DNA of 37,730 bases from a virus. This document shows, one piece after another, positions 7,094 to 37,498 of this stretch. The stretch lies in IMG/VR virus record IMGVR_UViG_3300028794_000182, positions 1 through 37,730 of that record; one strand, 5' to 3'. Below the pieces are notes generated by a model. It was not told where the DNA came from and did not search any database. It was given only the letters and a program-made list of their open reading frames with translations. The position numbers were made by a program, and so were the translations under genes. Each line of letters starts with the position of its first letter. The stretch's first letter is position 1.

Positions 7094-10000
7094 TTATAAT
7101 TTACCTGCTGCCCGCAGTACGTTGGTTAAACTGGTTGATGATGTATTATTATCGATGCTTTTCAGGCTGTCTTTCATCTCGTCGGTATTATCCGCAGTCC
7201 GTTTGGTATTCCTGGATATTTCCATTTGTATCAAAGTTTGGCTGCGCATTTCGGCAAGCTGATCCTGCATTGTTTTTCCCATCGGCGCCAGGATGGCCGT
7301 TTGGCCTACAACGGCCAGCTGCATTCCATGTATCGAACCTTCCAGTACATTCGCCTGATCGGACGTTATGCCCTTGATCTGCCCGCTAAGCGTTGATGAT
7401 GATCCCGAGGCGCTTTTATCCGGGTTGGCAAACACATCTAATCCCTGCGCTTTGGCTGCGTCCCTTACCGCCTGCAATGCATCCTGGTATTGTTTAACCA
7501 GCGGCCCGGCGTCCTTATAAAAGTTAGTCAGGTCATCCGTTGCGTTCTGGTCACCGTCGATGCCGAACGAAGCTTTCAAATTAGTTTCCAGCTGGTCAAA
7601 CTGGCTACCAAAAATGTCGTTGAAAAGGAATTGAGACACGATGTTTCCAATTACATCGCTTACCTTTTTGCCAAAGGCATCGGCGGCGCTCTGTCCCCGC
7701 TCAAAGGCATCTACCAGGGCATTACGCAGGTCATCGCCTAATCCACCGGCCAAATCCTTAATATCGCTGTTGATCTGTTCTACTGCCGCTTTGCGGGCCT
7801 CGTTTAAGTCGAGGGTGTTTTGCAGGTCTATTTTTGCCTGTGCGGTAAGCAATCCAGATTGAATCAGCGATTTTGCACGGGCCTCATTCAATTGGTTAAT
7901 GCCGTCTTTGTCTTTTTGGATCAAGTCGGGATATACGCCGAGTAGTGGGCCAAAAACGTCTACCCGTTTTTTAGAAGCAAACAAACCAATGATGGCACCG
8001 GCAGCAGCGCCTATTACAGCCCCCACAACCGCGGCAGGGGCGGAAAGCACACCAACCCCCACAGCGGCGCCAATTACAGCCCCAGCGGCCGCGCCAGAAG
8101 TTGCACCCTTACCTACAGCGTTTCCGTCAACTGCTTTCCTTGTACCAGTTTTAATTTGGGCAGATTGCAGCTTTACAAATGATTCTTCAAGTTTCTTATT
8201 AGTTTCAACAACAGCCAGTGAGGCGTTTAATATATCAGCCCGATAGTCTTTATAAAATATGTTGCTGTTTAATTGCTCCTTAAGCCTTAAGGTTTCAATT
8301 AACGTGAGGTTATAGCTGTTTTGGGCTAAAGTGGTAGCATCAATAAAAGCCTGCTCAGCCGCTTTACGTTGCTTTGCGGCACTCGTTATGCTGCCAATTA
8401 TTGTAATTATACTTTGTGCAACGGTGGCATACATCGATACTTCGTCCTGGAAGCTTGAAGCGCCGCTGGCCTGCTCTTCTTTTATTTTAGCCTGTAGCTT
8501 TTCAACGTTACCAATGGCAGTTAACGCGCTACCAGCTGCACCGACTAATGATGATAGCCCGGAATTTACCCCAGTGAGATCATTTGACATATTACTGAAA
8601 ACAGAGCCAATAGCTATCAGGTTACCCGGGTTGATATTTTTCAACTCGTTAGAAGTCTCGTTAAATAACTTTTTGTATTTAAGATAAGATTCCTCAGTTA
8701 TTAAATTTTGAGCACGTCTCCTTTCGAGATCGGCTTTAAGGAATTCGTTATCTTCCTGGGCTTTTTTAACGCTTAGCTTATGTAACCCATCGTACAACTC
8801 TTTGTATTGCGATAATTCAGCAATTTTGGTGTTGTCAAGGTCAGTAAGGGCTTTTTCGCCATTTAAAATAGCTTGATCTGCTTCCGCTTTGTAGCCGTCT
8901 TTCCGCAGTTGCGCAGCCTGGTCAAGATATTTCTGAATAATGTTATTGCGTTGTTGCCCATAGGTCATAGCCGATGCAAGCAGCTCCACATTCTTAGCTG
9001 CCTCGTCCCTTTGAATTTCTACACCATATTTGGCAAATAGCGCCTTACGCTCCTCCTGTGCCTGGGGTGTCAGTCCGGATGATAGCAACAGGTTTTCAAC
9101 GAAGTTTAAATAGGTTTTAAAATCACCTCCGCTGGCAATCAGTTCAGCATATTGTTTATCAGCCGCCTCTTTACCTAACTGCTCTTTATAATTCTCATAC
9201 TCGGCGTACAGGGCTTTCCTTTTTTCCAGGTCTTCGCCTATCCCTTTAGTTTCGTTGCTTTCAACCTGGGTGTTTATAGCGCCGGTTTCATTTGCCTGTA
9301 ACGTTCCCTTATTTATCTTGACCGTATTTTTAGGGTTGGCGTTATACTTATCAATATCAGCCCTCAGCTTATCGTATTCATCGCGCACGGCCTTTATTTT
9401 TTGGCTGTTATCGTCAAGCGTTTTGGCGTTGTACTTTTCGTTAAGCTGGTAAATTTTCTGCAACAGGTCGGCATGTCGCTGAGCGGCGTTTAACTCCGAA
9501 TTTTCGTCTGTAGCCGTCGCGCCACTGTCATATGAGCGCAGCAGCTTTTTAACCTGGGCAATGCGGGCCCTTAAAACATCCTGGTCTTTATCGCCGGGCA
9601 CCAAAGTATCCAACTTATCTTGCAGGCCTTTTTTAAGCGCGTCCAGGTCATCTTTTCCGCTTGCTTCTTTTACCAGTTTGTTAAACGCGTCAATAATGGG
9701 CTGTACGGTTTTGCCCGCCATAGCAGCCGCAAGATCAGTTCTGAACTTGCTGGCAATTGCCCCGGTTGCAGCGTCGGTACCAGCTATTGTTTTTTTAATC
9801 TGTTCGCCAAACAGCGCATCTATTTTATCATTTGCTTTTTTGTAGTTTTCAATCAGCTGGTTTACCGTCTCCTCATCGTCAGCGGTACCGCTAACCAAAC
9901 TCTTAGCGCTTGAATTGAAGGTAAAAAATCTTTTCAGGCTCATTCCTAACCTTTCCGATGAACTAATGGCATCAACACCTTTAGTTTTCAGTTCGGTTAT

Positions 10001-21426: not shown

Positions 21427-22754
21427 ACGGGCGTAACGGCTTAAATTTTATTGAACTGCAAAACAGGCTGAACGATCTGTATGCTGCCTGCTGCGATAAG
21501 CACGCGGTTAACCTAAGTATTGATGATGCACCTAAGCAGTACCAGGATTACATTGATGGGCTTATAGGCGCAATTTTTAAAGCTAAGGCCGCACCTGACG
21601 CCGATCCTAACCTGATCCGCGCGTATGGCAAAAAACTGGAAAGCGGCGTTATGGAAGGCTATGGTAAAAAACTTCCTGATATAGCCTGGGATTCGCCCGA
21701 TTATCGCACCATTACGGCACTTCAAAACAATGTTTGGCAATTCAGCGCAGCCAAAACACATACCCAGCTAAGGGATATGAGCAAAGCACTTGTTGATGCA
21801 GACGGCAAGGTTCGCAGCTTTAAAGAGTTCCAGGCAGAAGCAAGGGCTATTACAGGCCAGCAATTGAACTGGCTGGGAACCGAGTACCAAACCGCAATTG
21901 CCAGCGGCCAGATGGCCGGTAAATGGGTTACAATTCAGGAACAAAAAGAAACGTTCCCCCTTTTGGAGTTTGATGCTGTTATCGACGACCATAGTTCCAC
22001 CATCTGCCCGCCGCTGGATAAAGTGCGCTTACCGGTTGATGATCCCTTTTGGAAAAAGTACTACCCGCCAAACCACTTTAATTGCCGCAGCACCGTGCGC
22101 CAGGTACGCGACGGTAAAATAACACCAGCTAAGGATATCGTTTATCCTGAAAAAATGGGAGCCATGTTTGAAAACAACGTCGGCATTACCGGCACCATCT
22201 TCCCGCCGGGCCATGCTTATTATACCGATGTGCCGCCTCATGTTATCAATAACAGTACGCTTTACATGCCTAAAGCCGATCAGTACATTGTTAAATATAA
22301 AGCTGCCGACGGTACCGAACTGGCTGTACACCGCAAGACTGATATAGCTGGTGGCCCCGACCTGTCCAACCTGGTAAAGGCCGGCAAAGCACTGGCCGAT
22401 AAAGGCTATACGGTTGATATCCTGCCCGAAATTCATGCCAGCGAAGCCGAATTGCGCAAAGCACTGCTGCCAGGCGTAGAGCCGGGCAAAAACCCCGACA
22501 TGGTGTTTAAAAAGGACTATGCTGATCTAAAATCACCCGAAGACCCGGTAACCTTTAAAAAGCTGCAACGCAACATCGCAAACGGAGCGCAGCAGGCCGA
22601 TAGGGTAATTGTGATGCTAAAGGAAGATTACGCGGAGGCATTGTTGAAAAAAGCCGCCCAGGATCGTTTCGCCGCATTGAAAGATATTAAAGAGATCGGC
22701 TTTGTTACGCGCGATGGCGAGTATATCGAATTCACCAGGGGATTAAATGAGTGA
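21423..22754 (+). CDS. Head morphogenesis protein (Mu gp30/F-like) with nuclease-like C-terminus
   Basis: The frame is open from 21288 but has no ATG, GTG or TTG until 21651, which would remove about 76 conserved-looking residues (FIELQNRLNDLYAACCDKHA). I place the start at CTG 21423, overlapping the portal stop as CTGA and giving 443 residues. The middle has the gp7/F minor-head signature: HSSTICPPLDKVRLP and NHFNCRSTVRQV (about 190-227). From about residue 280 there is an extra domain with KNPD (356-359) and DLKSP (368-372), then AQQADRVIVML, resembling CdiA-type nuclease toxins with a PD-DxK-like core. Function of that domain is inference. Confidence 0.75.
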   Translation: MNGRNGLNFIELQNRLNDLYAACCDKHAVNLSIDDAPKQYQDYIDGLIGAIFKAKAAPDADPNLIRAYGKKLESGVMEGYGKKLPDIAWDSPDYRTITALQNNVWQFSAAKTHTQLRDMSKALVDADGKVRSFKEFQAEARAITGQQLNWLGTEYQTAIASGQMAGKWVTIQEQKETFPLLEFDAVIDDHSSTICPPLDKVRLPVDDPFWKKYYPPNHFNCRSTVRQVRDGKITPAKDIVYPEKMGAMFENNVGITGTIFPPGHAYYTDVPPHVINNSTLYMPKADQYIVKYKAADGTELAVHRKTDIAGGPDLSNLVKAGKALADKGYTVDILPEIHASEAELRKALLPGVEPGKNPDMVFKKDYADLKSPEDPVTFKKLQRNIANGAQQADRVIVMLKEDYAEALLKKAAQDRFAALKDIKEIGFVTRDGEYIEFTRGLNE

Positions 22755-26158: not shown

Positions 26159-26455
26159 TTATGTAAATCTGAACCAGTCGTTATCTCTTATAATTGTCGT
26201 TTCAAACGGAAACTTATCTTTAGGCACCATTGCAATGGCTTCCATAAGCCCCTTTGAACTGGTAAATAATATGTGATAGGTGCCGTTAATGGATATCTGC
26301 ATGTCAAGCCTGAGTGTTCCGGCCTGCTTGGTACTGTCAACTATCCAGTATTCATGAACCGTTATTTCACGGTTCAATATTCGTTCTGTTTTTATCTTAT
26401 CCCCTTTGTAGTTGTTTTTGTTGGTTTGTATGTTGAAATCGCTGAATTTGTTCAT
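26159..26455 (-). CDS. Hypothetical protein downstream of the reverse transcriptase
   Basis: A 98-residue protein whose start lies inside the end of the reverse transcriptase gene (59-base overlap in another frame). Features: KTERILNREITVHEYWIVD, then LRLDMQISINGTYHILFTSS, and FPFETTIIRDNDWFRF, a small mixed alpha/beta protein. I remember similar proteins in Bacteroidota phages as of unknown function, some looking like single-stranded DNA binders. The overlap with the reverse transcriptase makes it a candidate DGR accessory factor, but it does not look like the helical Avd protein. Confidence 0.55.
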   Translation of the reverse strand: MNKFSDFNIQTNKNNYKGDKIKTERILNREITVHEYWIVDSTKQAGTLRLDMQISINGTYHILFTSSKGLMEAIAMVPKDKFPFETTIIRDNDWFRFT

Positions 26456-27401
26456 TGGTAGATTGTAGTTTTTTTATAAGATTTCGGCAATTAGCGTACT
26501 TTGCCCAGCCGTTATAAGCGGCTATCTTAACCGGCAGGGGGTTCCGGGCCATCATCCGGGCAAAGCGTCTTTTGATAGAAGGCCTTAACAGGATATGGGT
26601 ATCATAAAATACATACCCTACAAAGTCAAGCCCTGTTTTTACCGGGCATACCCGGCTGTTATGTTTTACTTCAAGTTTTAAATTATCATGCAGGTAGCAT
26701 ATAATGAAGGCTAATAAACCGTGCAGGTATTCTTTGCAGTCAGCCAAAACAACAATGTCATCTGCATACCTGAAACAGTTGGCAACGCCCAGCTGCTCTT
26801 TCAGCCAATGGTCAAACGGTGTAAGGTACAGGTTGGCAAAATAGGCGCTCAGGTAGTTCCCTATAGGCAGGCCGGGAGCACTGTCAATAATACTGTCCAG
26901 CAGCCAAAGCAAATCTTTATCTTTTATCTTACGCCTGATGATCTGCTTTAGAATCGAATGGTTTACGCTGGGATAAAACTTCCTGATATCAAGTTTTAAG
27001 AAGTACTCAGTAGCCTGAACATCCCTCAACGCATATTTAACGTCATCAGCAGCACCGTGAATACCTTTTCCTTTGATAGAGCTGTAGGTAAACGCCGTGA
27101 AATAAGCATTAAAAGGCGCTTCCAGGTAATTCATAATGGCATGATGTACAATCCTGTCAACGTATGGCAGTATGGATATCTCGCGCACTTTAGGTTCATA
27201 TATGGTTCTGTGCTGATAAGTACCGGTTTGGTATGTTTTATCCTTTAATGCCTGGTGAAGGGCAATAATGTTGGCATCCCTGTTTTTGTCATGCTCTTTT
27301 ACACCCGATTGCTTTGATTTGCCTTTACGCGCAATTGCATCGGCTAATTGAAGGTTTTCAATGCTGATGATATCTGCGTAAAGGTTACCTATCCGTTTCA
27401 T
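26397..27401 (-). CDS. DGR reverse transcriptase
   Basis: The enzyme that copies the template repeat RNA with adenine-directed errors. I choose ATG 27401 (MKRIGNLYADIISIENL, 334 residues), the typical start of DGR enzymes; the longer frame begins at a TTG (27446). Group II-type polymerase motifs: FLKLDIRKFYPSV (about 134-146, first catalytic Asp138), GLPIGNYLSAYFAN (177-190), the active site FRYADDIVVL (YADD at 212-215) and LDFVGYVF (258-265). There is no maturase or endonuclease domain. DGR enzymes usually have SQ in the GxxxSQ motif; here it is SA. The template repeat lies 118 bases upstream of the ATG. Confidence 0.93.
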   Translation of the reverse strand: MKRIGNLYADIISIENLQLADAIARKGKSKQSGVKEHDKNRDANIIALHQALKDKTYQTGTYQHRTIYEPKVREISILPYVDRIVHHAIMNYLEAPFNAYFTAFTYSSIKGKGIHGAADDVKYALRDVQATEYFLKLDIRKFYPSVNHSILKQIIRRKIKDKDLLWLLDSIIDSAPGLPIGNYLSAYFANLYLTPFDHWLKEQLGVANCFRYADDIVVLADCKEYLHGLLAFIICYLHDNLKLEVKHNSRVCPVKTGLDFVGYVFYDTHILLRPSIKRRFARMMARNPLPVKIAAYNGWAKYANCRNLIKKLQSTNEQIQRFQHTNQQKQLQRG

Positions 27402-27495
27402 TAAGCCTTTGCTTTGTAGGTCGTTTTCGCGGATCACCGCTACCAACGCCCTTAAGTTTGTTAGTTATTTTTTGCACTGTGGCAGGGCCTGCGCC

Positions 27496-27513
27496 GCTTA
27501 AGTTCTGTTAAGC
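27496..27513. repeat. Inverted repeat just past the template repeat
   Basis: GCTTAA-GTTCTG-TTAAGC, perfect 6-bp arms, lies 5 bases beyond the 3' end (coding sense) of the template repeat. Comparable hairpins beside variable repeats are known to promote DGR retrohoming; beside a template its role is not established. Confidence 0.45.
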
Positions 27514-27518
27514 AATGT

Positions 27519-27588
27519 GGGCACCGAGGTTCGTGTTCGTGTTCGTGTAGTTCGTGTTCGTGTAAACGAAGGCAGACAACGAAGGAAC
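27519..27588 (-). repeat. DGR template repeat (TR)
   Basis: A 70-bp non-coding copy between the first target gene and the reverse transcriptase. Read on the minus strand it would encode VPSLSAFV, then YTNTNYTNTNTN, then LGA. The 34-base middle consists only of TAC, ACG and AAC codons and contains all 17 adenines of the element; the 25-base and 11-base flanks contain none. All three variable repeats differ from it only at those adenines. In no case can a single-adenine change in TAC, ACG or AAC create a stop codon. Confidence 0.95.
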
Positions 27589-27619
27589 TGCGGCATCGCG
27601 GCGCACAGCCGTATTATTG

Positions 27620-27979
27620 TTATGCTACCCGGTGCAGGTCGTTGATCAGGTCAATGTGCTGCTCACCAAAATAGCGGGCCGTTTCCCGGTTTTCGAAGTA
27701 AAAGCGGGCACCGAGGAACGTGTACGTGTGCGAGTAGTCCGTGCGCGTGTAAACGAAGGCAGACAACGAAGGAACCCATTCGAACCAGGGCGTATACTTC
27801 CAGGTATCGTCTCCAAAATCAGGCTTCCAGTAGCCATTTGTCGCATTTTGAATAATTTCCAGTTTGTAAGCAGCTATCTGGCGTTTAGCAATAACCTCTG
27901 GCAGGCCTTCAACACCTGGTAATAAATTCGGATCGATGCCCAATATTTCGCAGGCTTTTTCAAATGATGGTACGTTCAT
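27620..27979 (-). CDS. DGR target protein 1
   Basis: A 119-residue protein immediately upstream of the template repeat. The N-terminal half (SFEKACEILGIDPNLLPGVE, then AAYKLEIIQNAT) is shared with target 3; then comes a Trp-rich lead-in (WKYTPWFEWVPSLSAFV), the variable segment YTRTDYSHTYTF (about 77-88), the invariant LGARF and a helical C-terminus (TARYFGEQHIDLINDLH). The variable repeat covers residues about 69-92, so about 27 residues follow it, unlike classical targets where it is C-terminal. I recall relatives in Bacteroidota phages, function unknown. The design implies a ligand-binding surface. Confidence 0.9.
   Translation of the reverse strand: MNVPSFEKACEILGIDPNLLPGVEGLPEVIAKRQIAAYKLEIIQNATNGYWKPDFGDDTWKYTPWFEWVPSLSAFVYTRTDYSHTYTFLGARFYFENRETARYFGEQHIDLINDLHRVA
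27706..27775 (-). repeat. DGR variable repeat 1 (VR1)
   Basis: A 70-bp copy of the template inside target gene 1. Eight differences, all at coding-strand adenines of the template. The base after the core (coding sense) is G where the template has A (CGC instead of CAC), as in the other two variable repeats, which may mark the IMH versus IMH* distinction. Confidence 0.95.
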
Positions 27980-27986
27980 GATGATA

Positions 27987-28496
27987 TTATATTTGTGGGT
28001 TTAAAAATTCATTCCATTCAGCGGCAAACTGTTTACCGATATAGGTTGCGTAATCGTCGTTTTCCGTGCAAAGGCGGGCACCGAGGAACGTGTACGTGCC
28101 CGTGCAGTACGTGTACGCGTAAACGAAGGCAGACAACGAAGGAACCCATTCGAACCAGGGGTAATATTTGTATTGCCTGGCGTTGGCGTAATCAGGTTCC
28201 CATAGTTCGTTAAAGTCATCCCCTGTCCGTTTGTTGAAAGCTTCAAAGATCAAGGCCAGTTTAAAGGCCCCGTTACTGTGCACCTGGTTTGGCGTCATAG
28301 GATTACTGAATGGTAAAACTTCCGTTGCAATCCATCCTTCGGCATCGCAAACATCCTCAAATGTCTTAAACCGATCCATCGGGTTTTGAGAGATAACCTG
28401 TTTTCCGAATAAGGCCGCTAAAACCTCTTTTAGTTCGCCCGATGCCGAGTTGTAAGCCTTTAGGGCGTTGTCTTTGTTAATTGATACTGTTTCCAT
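27987..28496 (-). CDS. DGR target protein 2
   Basis: A 169-residue relative of target 1 with a longer N-terminus (about 50 extra residues, NKDNALKAYNSASGELKEVL and FGKQVI). The middle has RFKTFEDVCDAEGW, a helix with FKLALIFEAFNK, then YKYYPWFEWVPSLSAFV, the variable segment YAYTYCTGTYTF and LGARLCTEND, ending in YIGKQFAAEWNEFL. The variable repeat covers about residues 118-141. It is 7 bases upstream of target 1 and presumably a tandem duplicate that diverged outside the repeat. Function unknown; it appears to be made with the early genes. Confidence 0.9.
   Translation of the reverse strand: METVSINKDNALKAYNSASGELKEVLAALFGKQVISQNPMDRFKTFEDVCDAEGWIATEVLPFSNPMTPNQVHSNGAFKLALIFEAFNKRTGDDFNELWEPDYANARQYKYYPWFEWVPSLSAFVYAYTYCTGTYTFLGARLCTENDDYATYIGKQFAAEWNEFLNPQI
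28076..28145 (-). repeat. DGR variable repeat 2 (VR2)
   Basis: A 70-bp copy of the template inside target gene 2, with nine differences, all at template adenines. Three of them (the last variable codons, TAC ACG TTC) are identical to VR1, suggesting shared history of the two neighbouring genes. The identity with VR1 continues 16 bases beyond the template boundary (CATTCGAACCAGGG on the plus strand). Confidence 0.95.
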
Positions 28497-28864: not shown

Positions 28865-30457
28865 TTAGTTTAATGTTGCTGCTGTTTGCTCAATTAGCCA
28901 TGCCATAGGCGGAGGAGTCACGGCATTACCGCATTGTTTAACCTGGGCTTTACTATCGCCGAGGATGATATAATCTTTGTCGAATGCCATTCCTAATTTC
29001 ACTTCGTGGGCACGTAGCGTCCTATAGTAGCAGTCTTCATAGTTGGGTTCTTTAAAGTAACTTATCGCCGCGCGGTCTTTTGTAGTCACCGAACATAAAG
29101 CTTTACTTATATGGTTAACCTGATCAGAGCCGCCATAGTGATAAGTCAGGAAAGAGTTAAATGCTTCACTGCTTAATATTCCCTGATTTACACCACCGGC
29201 GGTGAAAGTTGAAAAGGCTTCGGTCATAGGCTTTAATTTACCGGTGCTGTTCAGTTCTATAATTGAAGGTGCCTGGGTAACAATTCCCATGCTCTGCCAT
29301 GTTGCCTGTGTTTGCAAAGCTTCGTTTGCTGTTTTAATGTAACCGGGTTGTGAGGTGTGTTCGCCTTTTATAATTAATGGCATGGGATGAACCAAGCCAA
29401 AATTTGCGTTCGTTGAACAAGCAGAGAGCGCCTGGTTAGCCAATCTTATGCGATTATCGTTATTGTCTGATTGTTGGTTATTTACGAGAAAAGATTGTAC
29501 TATCCCTTGTGTGTCCAAGGTCGTTTGCGTATAAAGCGGGTCTGATATCGCCCTTACTGTGCCTCTTGCAGTTTCGCCATATGCGGCAAGCATCAGAAAA
29601 GGATTCTGACTGTGTAGTGTTAACCCTTTCTTTACACGGCGCTCAGTATTCTCCTTTAGCGGTGTTTTACGATCACCTATACGCGTCCCCGGCAAACTCC
29701 AATCAATGCAATTAAAAGCAGCGTAGTAGAATGGCTCTACAATCATTGTGCAGACAGGGCAGCAGTAAACATATCCGCCACGGAATTTCCAGCTTTTTTG
29801 ATTCAGTTTCCAGCTTTGAACCGCGTTGATATTCTTTTCGCATTTTGGGCAATGTGCAAGCGGCATATAGTTCAGATCGGGGGCCTTGTTTCCTTTTTTC
29901 CAGAACACCACATACATTCTGTCCCTGCTTTGTGGTGTCGGCCAAAAATGCATGCTATTTAAAAAACAGGCTTTATGTTCATATCCTAAAGCACGCATAG
30001 CATATATCCAAGCATCAAACATGATCCACTTACGGGCATCAACTACATTTTCAGTAATGATTATTTCATATTTATGAACCTCTGCAAATCGTACCACATC
30101 CCACATTGTTGCGCGGCTTCTGTCAGCAGCTGCGTCAACTTTCCCGCTATTGAACATGTCCATCTGGTTTTTAAGTTGTTTCTTGCCATTCGCTACTGTA
30201 TGATTAGTACATTCAGGAGAAGTAATCAGAATGTTCGTGCTGGGATACCTTCGCGGATCGCAAGCGGATATGTCAGTACAATCGTGCTGTGTTTCCGGAA
30301 AGTTTGTGTTATGTGTTTCTATAGCCAGCTTCCAATGATTTAAAGCCATCTTTACTTCGATGCCGCCCCCTATTTTGCTTCCATAATTACGAACGCCTTG
30401 CGAACTTCCGCCAGCGCCGCAAAACTGATCTGTTACTGTGATGTAGCTGTTTTTCAT
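28865..30457 (-). CDS. DNA cytosine-5 methyltransferase
   Basis: A 530-residue C5-methyltransferase. Motif I at 12-17 (FCGAGG), motif IV SPECTNHT (80-87) with the catalytic Cys83 after Glu instead of the usual Pro-Pro, motif VI ENV (136-138), motif VIII QSRDR (176-180) and motif X GNAVTPPP (about 510-517). A zinc-knuckle-like insertion sits at CPKC (203-206) and CCPVC (232-236). A long target-recognition region (about 240-490) follows. It probably protects phage DNA from host restriction; no cognate nuclease is seen. The start overlaps the previous stop by 4 bases. Confidence 0.92.
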   Translation of the reverse strand: MKNSYITVTDQFCGAGGSSQGVRNYGSKIGGGIEVKMALNHWKLAIETHNTNFPETQHDCTDISACDPRRYPSTNILITSPECTNHTVANGKKQLKNQMDMFNSGKVDAAADRSRATMWDVVRFAEVHKYEIIITENVVDARKWIMFDAWIYAMRALGYEHKACFLNSMHFWPTPQSRDRMYVVFWKKGNKAPDLNYMPLAHCPKCEKNINAVQSWKLNQKSWKFRGGYVYCCPVCTMIVEPFYYAAFNCIDWSLPGTRIGDRKTPLKENTERRVKKGLTLHSQNPFLMLAAYGETARGTVRAISDPLYTQTTLDTQGIVQSFLVNNQQSDNNDNRIRLANQALSACSTNANFGLVHPMPLIIKGEHTSQPGYIKTANEALQTQATWQSMGIVTQAPSIIELNSTGKLKPMTEAFSTFTAGGVNQGILSSEAFNSFLTYHYGGSDQVNHISKALCSVTTKDRAAISYFKEPNYEDCYYRTLRAHEVKLGMAFDKDYIILGDSKAQVKQCGNAVTPPPMAWLIEQTAATLN

Positions 30458-34906: not shown

Positions 34907-36928
34907 TTAAAATCTGTCTTTAAGTGATTTTACAAAGCTTTCAGTCGGGATGGTGAAATCCTCTTCTGCAGGTGTCGGCAGGCGTTCGCCCGATCCTATG
35001 CTTTGTTGCTTTTTAAGTTTACCTGGCATGCTGAAGGTTCTTACTTCCGGTTCCATCTTGCTGATCAGGGTAACCTTTTCTATTTTTTGTTTCTGCCTGC
35101 GGCCAAAGCTTTCTATAGTGGCCGTATACGCGCTCATAATAACCTCTGAGTTCCTGTCGGCATCTGTCATTTCGATGGTTGCCCTGGTGTATCTTGGTTT
35201 GGCAATAGCCTCGCAGATGTATTGGGTGCCCATGAAAACCATGGCCTTTAAAACTTTACCCTCGTGATCATCCAGCCAGTATATATCAACTTCGTGGCCT
35301 TCTACCTGCTTCATCAGGTTAATAAGCTTTTCGCCCAGGCTTATCTTGCCATCATGGCCCAACAGGAATTCCCTTTTTTGCAGGCGTATGATGCCCACAT
35401 TACAGCTTGATGTGGTTTTGTAACCGATGTAAGGCAGTATGCCCATGTAATTGGTTGGCTTAATTTCCGGGTGCTGCATTTCGCAAAACACTTCCCACCT
35501 GGTCATATGGGTATGTACACTATGCTTACGCGAATTCCATAATTCTAAATCTGATATGCAACCTTCTATTATTTCTTCATAAGGGATGCGGGGCACCTTT
35601 TCAATATCAATGGCCGGTTGGTTGCTTTCGCTCAGGGCATGAGGGCGGGCCAGCCAGCCTTCCTTATCCTTTTCATATTCGTAACGCAGTGTTTTATAGT
35701 AACGCTCTATGCGCTTTGCACGCGGGTTATTAGGAAGCATTTTAACATGCTGAAACATTTCGCCTTCGCGCAAAAATGTATTAACAAATGAACTGTTTAA
35801 ACTCATTTCGCACTCTAACTCGGCAGGCAGGTTAAAGCCCCAGTGGGCATAGTTCCTTACCATCTCGCGGTAAAACTCTGTGATGATACCCTCTTTAGTT
35901 TCGCCGTGTACCGAAACGGTGAACACCTCGCTGCCCAGGTCAATGCCGTTGTAAAACCAAACCCTTTTACCGCTTAAATCTTTAAAAGGCGGCTGCCTGT
36001 CATCTATGGATATTATACTGCCTGCAAATTTTGGTTTATCAAAGCTATGGGCTGGTTTAAATTGTGTCATCAGCTTTTCTCGGTTGGTGCTGCGGTGCTG
36101 GTAGGTACCTATTTTGTTAACCCATTGGCTCATGTAGTTTTTTACAGTAGCATCACTTAGTTTTTTAAAGTCGGCAGGGTTATACAGTTCGCCGGTGTCG
36201 TTTATCACCACATCAAGGTAGCCGCCTATAAAGCTTTCATACCTCCGGTGAACATCGGTAGCCGTAGGCTTTATCTTTTCGCCTATGAACATGCTGTTAA
36301 GCAGTTCAAGGGTTTTGTCGGTAACCTTGCGGGTGTTTTGGTTTTTGTGTTTGCCGCTGATCAGGCTGGGGTAGCCATTGGCTTCATATTCTTTAAATAC
36401 ATTAATAAAACTGCGCTCAGCTTCGGGCAAGGTGTGCTGTACGCCGTTATATTTGGCTTTAAGAGTAGCCTGGAAGCTGTGCGCATCTTCCCACAACGTG
36501 GTATTGATGCCATGAAGGCTGATACCTTTGCTTTTGCGTTTGTCGGTCCGGTCGGCCTTTAGGAGTTTAAGGGCTTCCAGTACGCTGGCATTAATAATAT
36601 AACGCTCCTGGTACATTTGGTCCAGGTAGGTTTCGTCGCCGTCAAACCGAAAGGTTTTGAAAAAAGTAACAGCCTTGCCGTCTATCCTGTAAAACCTTTC
36701 AAGTATATGGTCGCATTTGCGGGGGTCGCCAAGGGCCGTTTGTATATCCTCACGCAAGCTATCATATGATATTAATAAAGGCATGCCATTATGTGCCCGT
36801 TGTACACGCTGTATCCCATACGGTTTATTTTTATAGCGTTGGATGGTTGTTTTCAGATTTGTTTCCGAATACCAGGGCTGCAATTCGTCCTTAGTTACAA
36901 CAAGAATGTTATTCCAAAACTGTGGCAT
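34907..36928 (-). CDS. Mu-like transposase (MuA family)
   Basis: A 673-residue transposase, the largest early gene. The DNA-binding N-terminus (to about 290) includes VQHTLPEAERSFINVFKEYE. The RNase-H catalytic core begins at SIISIDDRQPPFKDLSG (Asp309/310), continues YNGIDLGSEVFTVSVHG, AELECEMSLNSSFVNTFLRE (372-374 in the position of the second acid) and NPRAKRIERYYKTLRYEYEK (Glu408). The second acid appears to be Glu, not the Asp of Mu. After the core come a beta-barrel-like domain and a basic tail (RRQKQKIEKVTL) that should contact MuB. It drives integration and replicative transposition. Confidence 0.95.
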   Translation of the reverse strand: MPQFWNNILVVTKDELQPWYSETNLKTTIQRYKNKPYGIQRVQRAHNGMPLLISYDSLREDIQTALGDPRKCDHILERFYRIDGKAVTFFKTFRFDGDETYLDQMYQERYIINASVLEALKLLKADRTDKRKSKGISLHGINTTLWEDAHSFQATLKAKYNGVQHTLPEAERSFINVFKEYEANGYPSLISGKHKNQNTRKVTDKTLELLNSMFIGEKIKPTATDVHRRYESFIGGYLDVVINDTGELYNPADFKKLSDATVKNYMSQWVNKIGTYQHRSTNREKLMTQFKPAHSFDKPKFAGSIISIDDRQPPFKDLSGKRVWFYNGIDLGSEVFTVSVHGETKEGIITEFYREMVRNYAHWGFNLPAELECEMSLNSSFVNTFLREGEMFQHVKMLPNNPRAKRIERYYKTLRYEYEKDKEGWLARPHALSESNQPAIDIEKVPRIPYEEIIEGCISDLELWNSRKHSVHTHMTRWEVFCEMQHPEIKPTNYMGILPYIGYKTTSSCNVGIIRLQKREFLLGHDGKISLGEKLINLMKQVEGHEVDIYWLDDHEGKVLKAMVFMGTQYICEAIAKPRYTRATIEMTDADRNSEVIMSAYTATIESFGRRQKQKIEKVTLISKMEPEVRTFSMPGKLKKQQSIGSGERLPTPAEEDFTIPTESFVKSLKDRF

Positions 36929-37123: not shown

Positions 37124-37498
37124 TTAATAAGTATGTAATTGGTTGATAAGCCCGATGTGCTGGGTGGCGAAATACTTGGCGTGGGCTTCGCCCGTGTTCG
37201 TGTCCGGGAAAACAAAGCGGGCACCGAGGCCCGCGATCGTGACCGCGTAGTACGCGTCCGTGAAAACGAAGGCAGACAACGAAGGAACCCAGTTTAACCA
37301 GGGTGTGCGCTTCCATTGGTTGCTTTTGCTGTAGTCTGGCTTCCAGTTGCCTACAGTAGCTTTGTAAATAATGCTCAGCTTGTAAAATGCGATAGTGGTT
37401 TTGGCTATATCTTCCGGCATGCCTTCTGTAGCCGGTGATACCTGGGGGTTAATGCCTAATATTTCGCAGGCATTTTCAAATGAAGTAACGTTTTGCAT
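37124..37498 (-). CDS. DGR target protein 3 (remote target)
   Basis: A 124-residue relative of target 1 (FENACEILGINPQVSPATEG, AFYKLSIIYKATVGNWKPDY), with the Trp-rich lead-in RTPWLNWVPSLSAFV, the variable segment FTDAYYAVTIAG, LGARF and the C-terminus YFATQHIGLINQLHTY. The repeat covers residues about 71-94. It is separated from the template and reverse transcriptase by about 9.6 kb and stands in the first genes of the early operon, next to the regulator and the transposase. A dozen extra residues (PDTNTGEAH) follow the repeat compared with target 1. Function unknown. Confidence 0.9.
   Translation of the reverse strand: MQNVTSFENACEILGINPQVSPATEGMPEDIAKTTIAFYKLSIIYKATVGNWKPDYSKSNQWKRTPWLNWVPSLSAFVFTDAYYAVTIAGLGARFVFPDTNTGEAHAKYFATQHIGLINQLHTY
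37219..37288 (-). repeat. DGR variable repeat 3 (VR3, remote)
   Basis: A 70-bp copy of the template with 11 differences, all at coding-strand adenines, the most diverged of the three. The A-free flanks are identical to the template. It is presumed to be diversified in trans by the reverse transcriptase at 26397-27401. Confidence 0.95.

Follow-up and report, generated by a model that had tools for sequence, protein, structure and literature searches.

A diversity-generating retroelement that writes into three small, probably non-virion proteins of a probable Mu-like prophage

In a survey of diversity-generating retroelements (DGRs), the variable regions proved to be systematically tied to C-type lectin folds at protein C-termini (PMC8144416). 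What is diversified by the DGR of IMG/VR record IMGVR_UViG_3300028794_000182, where the tail module (about 1.2–17.5 kb) contains no variable repeat (VR) and no tail protein bears one? We analysed the whole stretch of 37,730 nucleotides (the window), a viral contig of 37.7 kb that is Mu-like by its Pfam matches to Portal_Mu (E 3.7e-59), Phage_Mu_F, DUF3164 and AAA_22. Our answer is that the DGR, with the architecture described below, diversifies three small, probably non-virion proteins (T1–T3) of a Mu-like prophage, and we give this reading a probability of about 0.88. It is carried by evidence at the level of sequence, namely the anatomy of the template repeat (TR) and VRs, the adenine specificity, a coding homing signal conserved as DNA, a covarying spacer RNA, the linkage of a 98-aa gene to the reverse transcriptase (RT), and the variation seen in relatives.

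The original prediction had proposed a complete DGR with adenine-only variation, and nearly all the features tested agree with it: an RT with a YADD motif, an adjacent TR, three VRs, adenine-only substitutions, a boundary between the initiation of mutagenic homing sequence (IMH) and its TR counterpart (IMH*), a conserved TR–RT spacer RNA, and homologous loci (Table 1). Program alignment of the four 70-bp copies returned the 8, 9 and 11 differences from the TR that had been counted by hand. All 28 of them (28/28) lie on the 17 TR adenines, and the other 53 core positions are identical in every copy. For 28 random substitutions over 3 x 70 sites the chance of this is P 3.8e-21, which rules out chance repeats as an explanation. 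A whole-record search with the TR and its flanks found these four copies and no further one, VR3 being 9.5 kb away inside a paralogue of T1. In the target frame, all 17 adenines fall in 12 consecutive codons (types TAC, ACG and AAC); by computation this codon set allows about 1.2e10 possible proteins, and a stop codon is never possible. A group II intron, retron or antiviral RT was rejected as an alternative identity, since the NCBIfam matches were all below curated cut-offs and the TR/VR evidence is decisive; the PADLOC matches of the window RT reflect generic RT similarity only.

We then asked how the element compares with its relatives. A single-protein pattern search for relatives of T2 found none; profile A1 was too diverse, and the closer profile A2 was used. 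The survey comprised 258 loci, 207 of them with a related RT, which gave 171 distinct RTs. The survey finder allows no non-adenine mismatch by construction, and the unbiased tests are a base-tolerance control and comparisons of strain pairs. In the control, run on the 207 RT loci, adenine-tolerant TR/VR pairs numbered 179, compared with 0 for C, 0 for T, 13 for G and 0 for the opposite strand. Loci L151 and L212 share 4451 bp with 11 differences, 11/11 of which lie in VRs at TR adenines; between L120 and L126 this holds for 12/13 differences, and the early-target VR of LoVEphage differs from that of BI-TP1 at 12 positions, 12/12 of them TR adenines. Such differences between near-identical relatives indicate that the DGR class is active in nature. 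Small-family targets only were found with 135 of the 171 distinct RTs (243 targets, median 143 aa, with 25 aa after the VR), whereas 12 of the 171 go with long targets (median 535 aa), whose VR lies near the terminus. At least 135 related loci of Bacteroidota phages share the design. Several genomes of cultured Bacteroidota also carry relatives. In the bacterial-genome set L036–L103, the stretch fetched contained no related RT for 37 of the 68 loci that carry a target homologue; some of these may be distal targets, and others DGR-free members of the family.

The homing signal is part of the coding sequence. Past the 3' end of the core, the first mismatch is A in the TR and G in all three window VRs, as expected of an IMH*/IMH pair, and a search of the window for the IMH pattern gave just three hits, one at each VR. 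Over 227 VRs, the commonest sequence 3' of the variable codons is GGC-TCT-CGC-CTT-TGC (G-S-R-L-C), and the commonest at the IMH* position of the TRs is AGC-TCT-CAC-CTA-TGC. At the two IMH positions where the TR has A, the VR has G in 209/209 and 199/199 cases, and at the four-fold degenerate third base of the Leu codon it has T in 153/158; adenines upstream of the IMH show mixed bases in the VRs. Over the loci, Arg is encoded by CGC in 223/227 and Leu by CTT in 210/217, and with one VR per locus the bias is still 125/128 and 121/128. Synonymous entropy in the IMH is 0.15 bits for Arg and 0.22 for Leu, versus 2.34 and 2.40 bits in the tail of the same genes. Codon choice in the G-S/A-R-L-C motif is therefore nearly frozen, and the motif is conserved as DNA, as expected of an IMH. 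C-terminal VRs have been put down to a need for cis elements free of coding constraint (PMC8144416), an explanation that the window class does not follow because its IMH is coding.

The VRs of T1–T3 are not C-terminal, and each ends about 26 codons before the stop. No Pfam family matched the T1–T3 family and no PDB entry matched it by sequence; a PHROG of unknown function was matched by 106 of the 111 target family members, and a membrane-like (transmembrane-like, TM-like) segment was present in 1 of the 111. The AlphaFold2 model of T2, built with the 111 members in the alignment, has a mean predicted local distance difference test score (pLDDT) of 89.4 and consists of helices and one hairpin (residues 110–118 and 123–132). 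The second strand of the hairpin bears the VR, and the block 131–140 has a pLDDT of 60. Foldseek and VIA-align matched no solved PDB structure to this model, and its BFVD matches were uncharacterised phage proteins only. PF03781, searched for as a test for a C-type lectin, was absent. A profile comparison with nine lectin-type targets aligned only a 30-column stretch, the VR plus G-x-R-L (E 9e-6, probability 83%). The target fold is predicted to be helical with one hairpin and not recognisably a C-type lectin, and since only the 30-residue VR module aligns with the lectin targets, this variable module looks portable between two scaffolds.

The window RT matches RVT_1 (E 1.6e-17) and phrog_1423 (E 1.2e-112) and is about 50–68% identical to RTs from loci with TR/VR pairs. 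Its start is very probably the ATG at 27401, not the TTG of the open reading frame (ORF) 26397–27446, because relatives' RTs all begin MKR. Its motif 4 differs from the pattern [IVL]GxxxSQ: SQ is found in 165 of the 171 distinct related RTs, and SA only in the window and in L104, its closest relative, a syntenic locus of about 70% nucleotide identity. As the two RTs join at 100/100 in the RT tree, the change is probably ancestral to both. GxxxSQ is typical, not essential; the epsilon crAss-like DGR CrAssE-Sib, whose target is a tail receptor-binding protein, also departs from it, in that case with GxxxSP (PMC11054128). The TR of L104 differs from the window TR at 8 non-adenine sites, and at 8/8 of these each of the three window VRs agrees with the window TR, a pattern of concerted evolution which indicates that homing continued after the window and L104 split, despite SA. 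In the tree, DGRs with small targets and those with lectin targets did not separate into two clades, in part owing to long branches.

Two further components accompany the RT. The gene for a 98-aa protein was found in 129 of the 132 small-target loci whose downstream sequence was long enough, and in the reverse search an RT lay beside it in 80/80 loci found by this protein; in Hankyphage p00 and L017 the RT carries a homologue as a C-terminal fusion. Its model (pLDDT 92.7) is a small barrel, and the best VIA-align neighbours are mostly OB-fold proteins (SSB, RuvB-like domain II) at Z 5 to 6.4, below the safe fold level. Avd (PF05635) was absent from the window and from ten relatives, with records that may be incomplete at their ends, and HRDC was absent from the window. 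By its linkage, the 98-aa protein is likely to be a DGR accessory. In L069, a Mucilaginibacter metagenome-assembled genome, a target family member and the 98-aa gene occur with no recognisable RT in the locus, possibly a decayed or split DGR.

The second component is the TR–RT spacer. Aligned with 39 relatives, it gives two hairpins in which 12/12 pairs changed on both sides and 96.5% of cells are paired. Shuffled spacers scored as high in 0/500 cases and slid versions came nowhere near; simple minimum free energy z-scores gave no signal (mean -0.23), unlike covariation. A covariance model located the RNA immediately ahead of the RT in 84/84 small-target loci that had been held out, and gave weak matches in 4/12 lectin-target loci. 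The window spacer matches Rfam RF03020 (RT-17) at 27408–27489 with 30.4 bits (E 0.00066), less than the gathering score of 40.4, which the spacers of L151, L041 and L036 exceed. We take the RT-17 RNA to be the structured 3' portion of the template RNA of the DGR. The Hankyphage TR–RT spacer (L033 5809–5958) is Rfam RT-3 (RF03068, 146.6 bits), which suggests a role as DGR template RNA for several of the Rfam "RT-n" RNAs.

Table 1. Coordinates of the DGR components and targets in the window.
Feature	Position	Strand	Basis
98-aa RT-linked candidate accessory protein, phrog_19665, OB-fold-like (predicted), overlaps RT 3' end	26159..26455	-	PHROG match, linkage, model
DGR reverse transcriptase, 334 aa, YADD, motif 4 PIGNYLSA in place of GxxxSQ	26397..27401	-	RVT_1, phrog_1423
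TR–RT spacer with conserved covarying two-hairpin RNA	27402..27512	-	covariation, Rfam
IMH* of TR, GGTGCCCACATT	27514..27525	-	alignment
Template repeat (TR) core, 70 bp, 17 adenines	27519..27588	-	program alignment, whole-record search
Target T1, 119 aa, phrog_11581, VR internal	27620..27979	-	alignment, PHROG match
Coding IMH of VR1, GGTGCCCGCTTT, codons G-A-R-F	27701..27712	-	alignment, codon analysis, pattern search
Variable repeat VR1, 8 substitutions, all at TR adenines	27706..27775	-	program alignment
Target T2, 169 aa, phrog_11581, VR = residues 118–140	27987..28496	-	PHROG match, AlphaFold2 model
Coding IMH of VR2, GGTGCCCGCCTT, codons G-A-R-L	28071..28082	-	alignment, codon analysis, pattern search
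Variable repeat VR2, 9 substitutions, all at TR adenines	28076..28145	-	program alignment
Remote target T3, 124 aa, phrog_11581, upstream of gene in MuA position	37124..37498	-	alignment, PHROG match
Coding IMH of VR3, GGTGCCCGCTTT, codons G-A-R-F	37214..37225	-	alignment, pattern search
Remote variable repeat VR3, 11 substitutions, all at TR adenines	37219..37288	-	alignment, whole-record search

A mechanism can be proposed from these components. The template RNA would consist of the TR and a structured spacer of the RT-17 type. The RT would copy it with random bases at adenines, probably aided by the 98-aa OB-like protein, and the cDNA would replace the middle of a target gene just upstream of the IMH in the codons for G-S/A-R-L-C. 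Each such event could alter 12 consecutive codons on the beta-hairpin of a mostly helical protein. Beyond the original prediction, the locus has small non-tail targets, non-C-terminal VRs, a coding IMH, an RT-linked 98-aa protein and GxxxSA.

Known systems share parts of this design. Hankyphage p00, a Mu-like Bacteroides phage (PMC6199706, PMC12135933), is likewise a transposable phage of Bacteroidota with the TR beside the RT, adenine-only VR variation, a spacer RNA of an Rfam RT family and a domain homologous to the 98-aa protein. Its RT is 34% identical to the window RT, and its target, unlike those of the window, is a tail fibre of large size, 1827 aa by our reading, that has a C-lectin domain and a VR close to its C-terminus; an Avd-like ORF is reported in the Hankyphage papers. 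LoVEphage (PMC12629997) and Bacteroides phage Versailles resemble the window in having an early-region homologue of the small target family that is adenine-written by the phage's TR. In both, one TR writes a lectin-type tail protein as well as the small early protein, and the main target is the C-lectin tail protein, whereas the window has three small early targets, two of them beside the RT. The LoVEphage paper also describes distal VRs close to DNA methyltransferases in four gut prophage species (PMC12629997). Bordetella phage BPP-1 (Mtd/Avd) has the same adenine mutagenesis, IMH/IMH* polarity and YxDD RT, but differs in its Avd accessory, C-terminal VR and C-lectin receptor-binding protein. 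In the tentaclins (PMC10743442) Avd is present and a C-lectin receptor-binding protein holds the VR in its 5' part, again unlike the window.

On the minus strand, the DGR shares a block with the presumed transposition genes, a C5 DNA methylase (28865–30457) and a DUF4406 protein; that this block is an early operon, as the original prediction had it, is judged from gene order and strand only. Were the element an ordinary receptor-tropism DGR, T1–T3 would be minor virion or adhesion proteins whose VRs bind host surface receptors as Mtd of BPP-1 does. The VR module does align with classical C-lectin tail-fibre targets, and the TR that LoVEphage and Versailles use on the small protein also writes a tail protein. 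However, the alignment is limited to the 30-residue module, the targets sit with the methylase, DUF4406 and Mu early genes and not in the tail module, and they are proteins of 119–169 aa from a family nearly devoid of TM-like segments and assigned to a PHROG of unknown function, which makes a receptor-binding role quite unlikely. We also weighed whether the SA change marks a crippled RT and the repeats record activity that has since ceased. In L104, a fourth copy of the target (9421–9741) has an 8-nt deletion and a frameshift in its VR and, like the departure from GxxxSQ, would suit such degeneration; the TR itself consists of CACGAA units in near-tandem order, an arrangement that may make slippage easier. 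Yet the window VRs track their own TR although SA is common to the window and L104, no window VR shows decay at non-adenine positions, and the RT frame and YADD are intact, so that degeneration is very unlikely.

The variable proteins might alternatively serve the lysogen, as an anti-phage sensor or a superinfection factor of the prophage, and not the lytic cycle. The phage looks temperate, T3 adjoins the presumed repressor end, and bacterial conflict proteins diversified by DGRs have been described (PMC10907252). As the targets carry no attached effector domain and their genes share a block with the presumed transposition genes, we consider this role unlikely. Several points count against our own interpretation. 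The target fold is a prediction, and a reduced lectin derivative would be compatible with the fold searches; early, non-virion status is deduced from gene order and the absence of TM segments and tail domains, and the Versailles homologue is annotated "tail protein", a label that probably stems from the shared VR module. The window RT has A for the near-universal Q of GxxxSQ, the link of the OB-like protein to DGR activity is drawn from linkage and RT fusion, and present-day homing in the window phage is something we infer.

If the targets are non-virion proteins, as we prefer, what might they do? The early location, small size, lack of membrane and tail features, nearby methylases and continuing diversification would fit a binder in intracellular conflict. 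The targets would probably act inside the cell, and a diversifiable early binder in phage–host conflict, for example against variable host defence or host factors, is the function that we favour, though at less than even odds. That the window represents a widespread Bacteroidota phage DGR class, with intracellular non-virion helical targets, a non-lectin scaffold, a coding IMH and an RT-linked OB protein replacing Avd, we propose tentatively, at slightly less than even odds. This large DGR group departs twice from the surveyed picture (PMC8144416), by its coding homing signal and by a predicted scaffold that is not a recognisable lectin. Variation would then act inside the cell, not at the tail, and the binders would form a heritable, variable set directed against host defences or host factors. 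For directed evolution, a variable module of 30 residues that serves two scaffolds and is bounded by a short coding signal also has its appeal. Where Avd is missing, the 98-aa protein beside the RT is a concrete candidate, the RT-17 RNA gains a likely role, and the DGR branch of the window emerges as widespread but little-described in Bacteroidota phages.

As to the genomic setting, the best explanation is that the DGR sits in a Mu-like prophage of a Bacteroidota host. An AAA protein occupies the MuB position, and a Pfam search with the product of the gene in the MuA position (34907–36928) gave no match; the phage presumably transposes. An ECF sigma factor gene (1–567) lies beside the tail end of the phage. 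This gene is probably host DNA, and the record is therefore likely an integrated prophage with one flank. At 21651–22754, a Mu F-like protein has a CdiA_C domain match at its C-terminus (E 3.5e-6).

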